This document shows, piece after piece, positions 7,248 to 9,908 of a DNA stretch of 9,908 nt. Made by a program: the position numbers and the translations under genes. Each line of letters begins with the position of its first letter. The first letter of the stretch is position 1. Under the pieces are notes generated by a model. That model was not told the DNA's origin and searched no databases. It was given only the letters and a program-made list of their open reading frames with translations. This DNA comes from a bacterium (GTDB lineage Bacteria; JAJRZV01), in contig JAJRZV010000008.1 of the NCBI GenBank assembly GCA_024275095.1, forward strand, positions 1 through 9,908, read 5' to 3'.

Positions 7248-7631
7248 TTAAACAGCCAGGGCCTCGGGAGGAACGTTAATAGCTTCCTTAACTCGATTCT
7301 TCTCATCCACAATGACAATTCGGGGTTTGTGTTCAATGCGTTCCTCTTCTGAATATACAGCATAGCTTGCAATAATAATGAGGTCACCACGTGCAACCTT
7401 CCGTGCAGCAGCACCGTTCAGCACAATTTCGCCGCTCCCTCTTTTACCCTTAATCACGTAAGTTTCGAAACGCTCCCCATTGGTGATGTTGTAAATCTGC
7501 ACCAGCTCATACTCCACAAGATCAGCTGCCTCCATGAGATTTTCATCAATGGTAATACTTCCTACATAGTGAAGGTCCGCTCCCGTTACCGTGGCCCTGT
7601 GAATTTTCGATTTGAGCAGCGTTCTCTGCAT
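7248..7631 (-). CDS. panD: PanD, aspartate 1-decarboxylase proenzyme
   Basis: 127 residues, the normal size for bacterial PanD. The enzyme converts L-aspartate to beta-alanine and CO2, supplying one half of pantothenate. It is a pyruvoyl enzyme that self-cleaves between Gly24 and Ser25, both present in HYVGSITID (21-29), with Ser25 becoming the pyruvoyl group. Lys9, Arg54, Tyr58 and Asn72, followed by GAAA (73-76), match the residues known for substrate binding and processing in the Escherichia coli enzyme. The fold needs a tetramer in the cytosol; in enterobacteria a PanM-type activator assists, and none is seen here. The ATG at 7631 is preceded by GAGGAGGTG, a very good ribosome binding site. 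The gene lies 127 bases after panC, the gap holding a GC-rich hairpin, and is probably the last gene of panBCD. Confidence 0.97.
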
Positions 7632-7758: not shown

Positions 7759-8622
7759 TCACCCTTTCCCTGCATTAAGAATTGCGTGGTCTATAAGTCT
7801 CGCCTTTCCCACCTTTACCGCGAGAGCCAGCATCACTTGTCCCTGAATAGAGTCAACGTCCTGAAACGTCTCAGGATCAACGAGACGCACGTAATCAATT
7901 TCAGTATGTGGATAACTCTTGATAAACGCCTTTACCGCCTCAACAATCTTGTCTGCATCTGTTTCTCCCTGTTCCACCAGCTGGCGCGCCTTTTCCAGTG
8001 ACCTTACCAGCGAAAGTGCTGACTTTCTCTCTTCCTCACTGAGGTACACATTTCTGGAACTCATGGCCAGACCATCGGATTCCCTGACTGTCGGCACACC
8101 CACAATTTCCACATCCATGTTGAGGTCCCTGACCATGCGTTCGATAACCTTGAGCTGCTGGTAATCCTTTTCTCCAAAAACAGCTATATGGGGCTTCACA
8201 ATGTTAAACAGTTTCGCAACAACTGTGGTCACACCACGGAAATGCCCGGGCCTTGATGCACCGCACAGGTATCGGGTTATTTCTGTTACTTCCACGTATG
8301 TCTGAAAACCCTCGGGATACATCTCTTCATCTGAGGGAGCGAATATGATATCCACACCCACACCCGCCGCCATTGTTACATCGCGTTCAAAGTCCCGTGG
8401 GTAATCTCTGAAATCTTCTTTTGGACCAAATTGAATAGGATTTACGTAAATGCTCACCACAACCACGTCTCCAAGCTCCCGGGCCTTGCGCATAAGGGTC
8501 AGGTGACCTTCGTGGAAATATCCCATTGTGGGAACAAATGCGATGCGGTGGCCTTTCTCTCGCAAGCGTTCGCTTTCGACCTTCATTTCTGTCACACTTT
8601 TGATAATTCGTACATCAGTCAT
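7759..8622 (-). CDS. panC: PanC, pantothenate synthetase
   Basis: 287 residues, the usual family length. The enzyme joins pantoate and beta-alanine using ATP, through a pantoyl-adenylate intermediate, to give pantothenate. Motifs seen are [10 protein letters not shown] (31-40), with the HxGH nucleotide-binding signature His37 and His40; [12 protein letters not shown] (60-71); [10 protein letters not shown] (126-135); FGEKDYQQL (149-157); and the KMSKS-like MSSRN (187-191). Aromatic Tyr35-Phe36 replaces the more common Ala-Leu of this loop and looks like normal variation. It is cytosolic and normally dimeric. The ATG at 8622 overlaps the panB stop by 8 bases, with GAGGAG about 10 bases upstream, so panB and panC are translationally linked. 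Confidence 0.97.
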
Positions 8623-9421
8623 GATACACGTGCTCCTCAGAAGGAAAAGTGCCTGAACGTACCTCCTCTATAAATCTGGTCACACTTTCTTTCACGGCTG
8701 AAGCCATATCAAAATATTTTTTGACAAACCGGGGCACCTTTTCCGTGAAACCCAGCAAGTCATGAAGAACCAGCACCTGACCATCACAGCATGCCCCGGC
8801 ACCGATGCCAATGGTGGGAATGTTGACGCTGGATGTAACAGCCTTCGCTGTCTCCTCGGGCACTCCTTCCAGTACCACCGAAAACACACCCGCTTCCTCC
8901 AGAGCTTTTGCTTCCTGAACCAGATGCCTCCGCGCTTCCTCACCACGCCCCTGAATGCGATAGCCACCAAAGGATTTCACCCACTGTGGAGTAAGCCCCA
9001 GATGACCCATTACAGGAATACCAAAACTTACCATGCGAGATACGGCTTCCAGCACAGGGCCGCCACCTTCGACCTTCACTGCATCAGCCCCTGCTTTAAT
9101 AAGGGCCACCGCACTTTTTACAGCTTGTTCCACCGAAGGTTGAAACGAACCAAAAGGCATATCTCCCACGATCAGTGCACGTTTTACAACTCTGGCCACA
9201 GCACGGGTATGATGCACCATGTCATCCAGAGTAACAGGCAGGGTGTTTTCATATCCAAGAATGACATTGCCAAGTGAATCCCCGACAAGAATGACATCTA
9301 TTCCTGAAGCATCGAGCAGAGAAGCAAAAGCTGCATCATACGCGGTAAGGCATACAATTTTTTCACCGGATTTGCGAGCGATAATATCTTTTACCGTAAT
9401 TTTTTTGCACTCATGTCCCAT
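8615..9421 (-). CDS. panB: PanB, 3-methyl-2-oxobutanoate hydroxymethyltransferase
   Basis: 268 residues, the family norm. The enzyme transfers a hydroxymethyl group from 5,10-methylenetetrahydrofolate to ketoisovalerate to make ketopantoate, the first committed step to pantothenate. Visible motifs are LTAYDAAFA (25-33), VGDSLGNV with metal ligand Asp48 (46-53), VGDMPFGSF with metal ligand Asp87 (85-93), Lys116 and Glu118 in [14 protein letters not shown] (139-146) and the catalytic Glu185 in VLEGVP. The GIGAG(x)3DGQVLV region begins near 205. It is a cytosolic decamer in known cases. No panE (ketopantoate reductase) is in the window. The ATG at 9421 is directly preceded by six T residues of a terminator-like hairpin, and its Shine-Dalgarno GGAGG is in that hairpin's 3' arm, so expression of the operon is likely controlled at this point. 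Confidence 0.97.
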
Positions 9422-9450
9422 AAAAAACCTCCGGCGGACCCAGCCGGAGG
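9422..9450 (-). terminator. Attenuator hairpin in the panB leader, covering the Shine-Dalgarno
   Basis: On the minus strand CCTCCGGC (9450-9443) pairs perfectly with GCCGGAGG (9435-9428) around a 7-base loop and is followed by six T (9427-9422). The next base is the A of the panB ATG. The 3' arm contains GGAGG (9432-9428), the panB ribosome binding site. The hairpin would both stop transcription and hide the ribosome binding site. Confidence 0.85.
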
Positions 9451-9513
9451 CAACGATATTCCTCGTTACGTCTCCGTCCAGGTCCAGCCTCTACATCCAG
9501 ATCCCGGCGGATC
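9445..9513 (-). promoter_or_regulatory. panB leader with aptamer-like stem and anti-terminator (possible pan-motif riboswitch)
   Basis: An upstream stem pairs 9511-9500 with 9485-9473. Four pairs (UCCG/CGGA) are followed by a single bulged A at 9477, five more pairs (CCGGG with CCUGG, one of them G-U), an A-A mismatch involving A9483, and two closing pairs, with a 14-base loop. Its closing strand CGGA is also the start of an anti-terminator: CGGAG (9476-9472) pairs with CTCCG (9449-9445), with an inner stem GTAACGA (9469-9463) against TCGTTGC (9456-9450) and loop GGAATA. The anti-terminator uses the 5' arm of the terminator. Thus the stem favours termination and the anti-terminator favours expression. 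A named RNA element, the pan motif, is known upstream of panB in Firmicutes, Chloroflexi and deltaproteobacteria and is described as a hairpin with two bulged A residues. This leader resembles that description, but I cannot align it to the family model. Confidence 0.6.
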
Positions 9514-9522
9514 ACTAACAAA

Positions 9523-9552
9523 ACAATACCATTTACTTAGCAAACTTGTCAA
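9523..9552 (-). promoter_or_regulatory. Promoter for panB-panC-panD
   Basis: A perfect -35 TTGACA (9552-9547), 18 bases, and an extended -10 (TGG directly before TATTGT at 9528-9523). Transcription would start near 9516, giving a leader of about 95 bases that holds the attenuator structures. A second perfect TTGACA lies 13 bases further upstream (9565-9560) but has no good -10 at a usable distance. Confidence 0.6.
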
Positions 9553-9563
9553 CGCAACGTGTC

Positions 9564-9600
9564 AAAAAACTCTCCCGGGTTCATCTCCAAAAGCCCGGAA
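9564..9600 (-). terminator. Candidate terminator of the small rubredoxin-like gene
   Basis: On the minus strand TTCCGGG (9600-9594) pairs with CCCGGGA (9579-9573), 7 pairs including one G-U, around a 14-base loop. A run of six T follows at 9569-9564, after four intervening bases. It lies about 70 bases beyond the stop of the gene at 9669-9836 and just before the pan promoter, whose upstream TTGACA overlaps the T-run. Confidence 0.5.
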
Positions 9601-9668
9601 CTTTATTCCTGTACTTGTAAATTTGGATTAAATTTTTATTCTTCTGCCTGAAGGTCTTCGCGTTATTA

Positions 9669-9836
9669 CTACTTCTTGCAGCTTCGCTTTTTCTTCGTGT
9701 TACATGAGGACTTTTTCCCTGCTCCAGCACCTCCTGCCTTCTCAAACGAACCTGAAGCTCCACACTCCGGACACTTTCTGGTTTTGCATCTGGAATCTTT
9801 AATAAATCCACACTTAGAACATTTCCACTCTGCCAT
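9669..9836 (-). CDS. Small rubredoxin-like zinc-ribbon protein (RCKP-type family)
   Basis: A 55-residue protein starting MAEWKCSKCGF. Cys6 and Cys9 (CSKC) and Cys22 and Cys25 (CPEC) form two CxxC knuckles, as in rubredoxin-like metal-binding ribbons. RCKTRKCPECGASGSFEK (16-33) resembles the small RCKP-type rubredoxin-like proteins common in sulfate-reducing and related bacteria, with Thr in place of the Pro. After a Gly-Ala-rich linker (34-40) comes a very basic tail with two further Cys (Cys45, Cys53) and many Lys. It should be cytosolic and bind iron or zinc; the actual function of this family is not established to my knowledge. The start is secure, with AAGGAGGAGA (9850-9841) before the ATG. 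It ends in TAG at 9671-9669. It is separated from panB by 247 bases holding a terminator, a promoter and the panB leader, so it is an independent unit. Confidence 0.88.
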   Translation of the reverse strand: MAEWKCSKCGFIKDSRCKTRKCPECGASGSFEKAGGAGAGKKSSCNTKKKRSCKK

Positions 9837-9869
9837 TTTTTCTCCTCCTTTAATTTCTTTAACTTTTAA

Positions 9870-9897
9870 ATTTTACTCAAGTAATAATCATTTGCAA
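9870..9897 (-). promoter_or_regulatory. Promoter for the small rubredoxin-like gene
   Basis: On the minus strand TTGCAA (9897-9892), a 16-base spacer and TAAAAT (9875-9870; 5 of 6 match). The start would be near 9863, about 25 bases before the ATG and just ahead of the strong ribosome binding site. The surrounding sequence is very AT-rich, as expected for a well-used promoter. Confidence 0.5.
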
Positions 9898-9908
9898 AAT
9901 TGGTGTCA

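Follow-up and report, generated by a model that had tools for sequence, protein, structure and literature searches.

A single pan-motif hairpin as the probable basis of a feedback attenuator in a bacterial panB leader

The 9,908-nt stretch of bacterial DNA analysed here (the window) carries genes of pantothenate synthesis on its minus strand, and it raises the question of whether the short leader before panB is a regulatory switch and, if so, in which direction that switch would act. The genes and the promoter-like site ahead of them are as follows.

8615..9421, minus strand: panB, ketopantoate hydroxymethyltransferase (Pfam PF02548, E 1.8e-110)
7759..8622, minus strand: panC, pantoate-beta-alanine ligase (Pfam PF02569, E 1.2e-110)
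7248..7631, minus strand: panD, aspartate decarboxylase (Pfam PF02261, E 1.3e-53)
9523..9552, minus strand: predicted sigma-70-type promoter, TTGACA 9552-9547, 18-nt spacer, TATTGT 9528-9523 (consensus scan)

An earlier note on this DNA had placed three competing pairings, and with them a candidate riboswitch or attenuator, between a promoter and the panB ATG at 9421, and the consensus scan does find promoter-like TTGACA and TATTGT hexamers there (9552-9523), with a TG preceding TATTGT on the minus strand. From this promoter-like site we infer that panB transcription begins near 9516; the predicted start lies upstream of 9500, and the pan hairpin described below begins 90 nt before the ATG. 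Further upstream of the panB promoter, positions 9567-9600 hold a palindromic element (CCGGG ... CCCGG) followed by a T-rich stretch, which probably terminates the upstream gene; another contig of the same genome, C48, has these 34 bases at its extreme end. Beyond it, at about 9670-9840, the minus strand encodes a small rubredoxin-like protein (MAEWKCSKCGFIKDSRCKTRKCPECGA...).

The first element of the leader is a hairpin of the pan-motif type, and its 3' strand has a second pairing partner downstream.

9473..9511, minus strand: single pan-motif hairpin with bulged A9477 and A9502 and loop 9496-9488 (fold; covariance model made without the window; covariation in 51 relatives)
9472..9485, minus strand: shared strand GGACCUGGACGGAG, the 3' strand of the pan hairpin and the 5' strand of the antiterminator (alternative folds, cognate pairing test)

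The hairpin is built, in order, of 3 bp (UCCG/CGGA in the fold), the bulged A9477, 5 bp (CCGGG/CCUGG), the bulged A9502 and a UC/GA stem (UCUGG/CUGGA). It spans 42 nt at a calculated -17.7 kcal/mol, and 2 of 200 dinucleotide shuffles were equally stable. The stem previously drawn here, 9511-9500 with 9485-9473, stands together with its bulged A9477, but its register above A9477 was off by one. The A9502-A9483 mismatch of that register is ruled out by the minimum-energy fold and by the relatives; in the corrected register A9502 is bulged, U9501 pairs with A9483 and C9500 pairs with G9484.

The assignment to the pan motif did not come from the Rfam covariance model, which had been proposed as the check. 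Searched against the window, RF01749 (gathering threshold 36.2 bits) gave no match at E up to 10 with either gathering or permissive thresholds, because that model describes two tandem hairpins joined over 92 positions; the Rfam scan of the window returned chance matches only, such as NsiR1, which fits the terminator. RF01749 likewise recovers only 5 of 40 single-hairpin loci. A seed model (R1) made from 11 hairpins, the window's included, matched 12 of the first 59 genomes, against 2 for RF01749, and 52 of all 386 genomes on which it was run (E <= 0.01). When a covariance model (R2) was built from 51 hairpins with that of the window left out, it scored the window hairpin at 22.3 bits (E 4e-5 in the window) and ranked it as the best match in its own 2.45-Mb genome (E 0.0098), where R2 finds one copy and no second pan hairpin. 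The window holds no tandem first hairpin, for which there would be no space between the pan hairpin and the adjoining promoter. Most, not all, pan RNAs are tandem according to the main text of Weinberg et al. 2010 (PMC2864571), so on that wording the tandem arrangement is not strictly required. The window hairpin is a single-hairpin form of the pan motif, and defining the element by one hairpin reveals it in many more families than RF01749 does.

Across 114 loci, a structural scan found the same hairpin layout upstream of panB in unrelated bacteria, among them Paenibacillus, Cytobacillus, other Bacillales, Desulforudis and a Dehalococcoidia MAG. Of 61 single-hairpin places, comprising the R1 hits and some named loci, 57 are followed on their own strand by panB, panC or panD, 54 of them within 350 nt. 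The other four are L145, where the hairpin precedes a PanE/ApbA ketopantoate reductase gene, L162, where the contig end cuts off the start of panB, and L157 and L160, both of which look like false matches. Vitamin B5 genes in dozens of bacterial families are preceded by the same arrangement. The earlier note had called for compensatory changes in the panB leaders of relatives, and the hairpin does covary: in the 51 sequences (window excluded) standard pairs fill 96.6% of the pair cells, and both partners have changed in 7 of the 11 hairpin pairs, a result that none of 500 shuffles gave. Pairing falls below 50% once the partner is shifted by one base. This covariation rests on distant families.

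The fold z-scores reach moderate values (-2.8 to -3.8) when the window is considered by itself, which would fit a G+C-rich leader without regulatory function that happens to contain a common terminator and a few stems. The hit by a model that had never included the window, the association with pan genes and the covariation all speak against such a coincidence, and we regard it as very improbable indeed.

Several observations on the relatives deserve mention in their own right. Three loci (L069, L081, L147) have pan hairpins before genes of a Rossmann-like protein (PF10727), which may be an alternative ketopantoate reductase. At L121, L124, L125, L127, L128, L134, L135, L137-L141, L144, L146, L149, L150 and L165 an upstream deoxynucleoside kinase gene (identified as PF01712 in L124) runs with its 3' end into the pan hairpin. 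The hairpin 5' strand CCGCTTGGATCC encodes the conserved kinase C-terminus P-L-G-S there, before or near the stop codon, so that the RNA element doubles as coding sequence, and a ribosome terminating at the kinase stop could disturb the pan hairpin. A variant layout with A-GC/GC in place of A-UC/GA (GUG CCGGG A GC ... GC CCUGG A CAC) occurs in L076, L082, L091 and L093, about 150-180 nt upstream of a panB match and after a promoter-like site, in Nitrospinota and related MAGs; it reaches only 13-16 bits with R1.

Between the pan hairpin and the panB ATG lie the parts that would convert its state into an outcome for transcription.

9450..9469, minus strand: inner 7-bp stem of the antiterminator, 9469-9463 with 9456-9450, loop GGAAUA (fold)
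9436..9449, minus strand: CUCCGGCUGGGUCC, the antiterminator 3' strand and also the terminator 5' arm plus loop
9427..9451, minus strand: terminator hairpin, also Shine-Dalgarno sequestor, 9450-9443 with 9435-9428, dG -17.6 kcal/mol
9428..9432, minus strand: GGAGG, the panB Shine-Dalgarno sequence, inside the terminator 3' arm and 6 nt before the ATG (sequence)
9422..9427, minus strand: U6 tract of the terminator, which also separates the Shine-Dalgarno sequence from the ATG (sequence)

The terminator is the one already proposed, 9450-9443 with 9435-9428 and T6 at 9427-9422, and the consensus scan recovers it. Positions 8800-9908 contain five terminator-like sites against 1.1 in shuffles, and the one in the panB leader is by far the most G+C-rich. 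The antiterminator had been recognized in its CGGAG 9476-9472/CUCCG 9449-9445 pairing and inner 7-bp stem, both of which hold, but its extent had been drawn too short, as GGACCUGG (9485-9478) goes on to pair with CUGGGUCC (9443-9436). The full structure has 13 bp across an A9477/G9444 mismatch in addition to the 7-bp inner stem and uses almost the whole 3' strand of the pan hairpin; 34 of 5000 shuffled partner regions paired as well as the real one.

Calculated energies place these folds close to one another. Nascent RNA reaching 9443-9440 is balanced, with -27.2 kcal/mol for the ON fold and -27.1 with the full pan hairpin, and for the transcript 9516-9407 the ON fold is the more stable by 3.4 kcal/mol (-44.7 vs -41.3), as expected of a switch that needs a factor for OFF. 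A transcript beginning at 9530, inside the promoter, favours OFF, so the start site matters to the predicted balance. Most relatives have OFF winning at equilibrium under a strict definition of ON, namely a terminator 3' arm that is wholly unpaired, which under-counts ON folds that borrow a few 3'-arm bases; switching in these relatives would then be kinetic. The outcome of the switch is accordingly not fixed by equilibrium energies alone.

The competing pairing can be followed in other families. A scored intrinsic terminator lies between pan hairpin and gene in 39 of 61 leaders; the scan found none in the remaining 22, so some members may act on translation or by another route. We paired the pan lower 3' arm and its flank in silico with the terminator 5' arm and loop in 30 leaders, thinned to about one per family and without tree correction, and own partners averaged -9.71 kcal/mol against -7.84 for swapped ones (0 of 50,000 permutations). 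The whole 3' strand gave -18.4 for own and -15.8 for swapped partners (0/20,000). As a control, the 12 nt before the hairpin had no preference for their own terminator arm (704/5000), and the segment 6-18 nt after the hit had a weaker one (11/5000). Clear antiterminators can be written out for L111 (CAGAGGGAU with AUCCUUCUG), L140 (ACGGGGA with UCCCCGU), L156 (ACAGGAAG with CUUCCUGU) and L143 (GGACCAA with UUGGUCC). The conserved GAaGG that follows the Rfam hairpin would on this evidence be best read as part of the antiterminator strand, a reading that L107 and L111 extend to the classical tandem leaders of Bacillales. That antiterminator and terminator exclude each other, as the earlier note had proposed, is borne out by the alternative folds and by the cognate pairing across families, and pan hairpin, antiterminator and terminator together appear from their sequences to form a conserved switch.

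We consider it likely, with a probability of roughly three in four, that this leader works as a feedback attenuator with a single pan-motif hairpin at its core. The earlier reading of the leader as an attenuator of the pan-motif type gains support from the model hit obtained without the window, from covariation and from the within-leader terminator pairing across families. Pan-type architecture, covariation, genomic association, exclusive pairings and the co-variation of antiterminator and hairpin were all computed; where transcription starts, which way control runs, the additional block of translation and what is bound are inferred. RNA polymerase would begin near 9516, and the pan hairpin would form first. 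If nothing holds the hairpin, its 3' strand GGACCUGGACGGAG would be captured by the downstream CUCCGGCUGGGUCC, and since the latter is the terminator 5' arm plus loop, the terminator could not form; transcription would go on and GGAGG would be free for ribosomes (ON). If a factor gripped the hairpin at its bulged A9477 and A9502, the 3' strand would stay locked, the terminator would fold and transcription would stop just before the panB ATG (OFF). The most plausible candidates for such a factor are a metabolite of the pantothenate/CoA pathway, whether its end product or an intermediate, and a protein that reports this metabolite. The anatomy thus implies that stabilising the pan hairpin should turn the pan genes off. 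The opposite sign, with a factor favouring the antiterminator and the operon ON, appears improbable to us: a factor might bind the long antiterminator hairpin itself, but what different families conserve is the pan hairpin and its pair of bulged A residues, holding that hairpin excludes the antiterminator, and end-product shut-off is what is expected of a biosynthetic operon.

The terminator of the window carries a second potential function, an overlap absent from the earlier note. As its 3' arm is the panB Shine-Dalgarno sequence, the OFF state should block translation too: the OFF hairpin would both terminate transcription and hide the Shine-Dalgarno sequence in any read-through RNA, and the ON fold would largely free GGAGG. 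The same compact layout, with GGAGG in a terminator arm, occurs in L116, L119, L120, L126 and L147. The position of GGAGG in the 3' arm, 6 nt before the ATG, would also suit a hairpin (9451-9427) that acts on translation only, termination being incidental. We think this unlikely, as a U6 tract directly follows the hairpin and as the terminator of many relatives lies 40-190 nt before the gene, where it cannot hide a Shine-Dalgarno sequence and the antiterminator pairing is still kept.

As to what would hold the hairpin in the proposed attenuator, we suggest tentatively, at somewhat less than even odds, that the single pan hairpin is the minimal aptamer (about 40 nt, two bulged A residues) of the missing pantothenate/CoA-pathway riboswitch, binding a metabolite directly and switching transcription and translation off across dozens of bacterial families. 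It is a serious possibility, if short of an even chance, that the same switch is instead bound by a protein, either a pantothenate-pathway enzyme or a dedicated regulator, and is a protein-controlled attenuator. The element is a simple interrupted hairpin, which would suit a protein, and Weinberg et al., in their main text, suspected that the partner is a dimeric protein, given the tandem arrangement of most copies then known (PMC2864571). However, most copies found here are single: the scan saw a tandem partner in 12 of 59 leaders, some of them doubtful, and no first hairpin in about 47, which weakens the argument from a dimeric protein.

Since its description in 2010 the pan motif has remained an orphan. 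Pan elements upstream of panB operons are listed in two transcriptome papers, neither of which offers a mechanism (PMC5670726, PMC4342826), and reviews from 2022 report no CoA riboswitch and make CoA a conspicuous gap among riboswitch ligands (PMC9971707, PMC10043782). The searchable literature, which for the 2010 paper comprises its main text, gives no ligand for a pan or CoA riboswitch and no mechanism, in agreement with the earlier remark that the ligand was not established. The conservation of the antiterminator predicts that control is of the OFF type, and the leader of compact members, this one included, measures about 95 nt. Together with the wider family range, this makes the choice between metabolite and protein testable with one short RNA.

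Compared with the pan motif RF01749, the window hairpin shares a stem with two bulged A residues in the same places, the conserved GGAUC ... GGAC and GAC signatures and a position upstream of panB/panC/panD genes. For the pan motif, Weinberg et al. 2010 (PMC2864571) describe in their main text neither the antiterminator nor the terminator nor the overlap with the Shine-Dalgarno sequence. In layout the window hairpin matches one half of Rfam's drawing of the motif (CuG CCUgG A UCc ... gGA CcGGG A CaG AaGG); the window has one hairpin and no reportable RF01749 score, whereas the model has a tandem pair. The expression platform of an OFF riboswitch forms its terminator when the aptamer is stabilised. 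The leader resembles OFF riboswitches that terminate transcription in this order of events, and also in that the 3' strand of the sensor stem is common to aptamer and antiterminator, but its putative aptamer, a single interrupted hairpin, is far simpler than most validated riboswitch aptamers.
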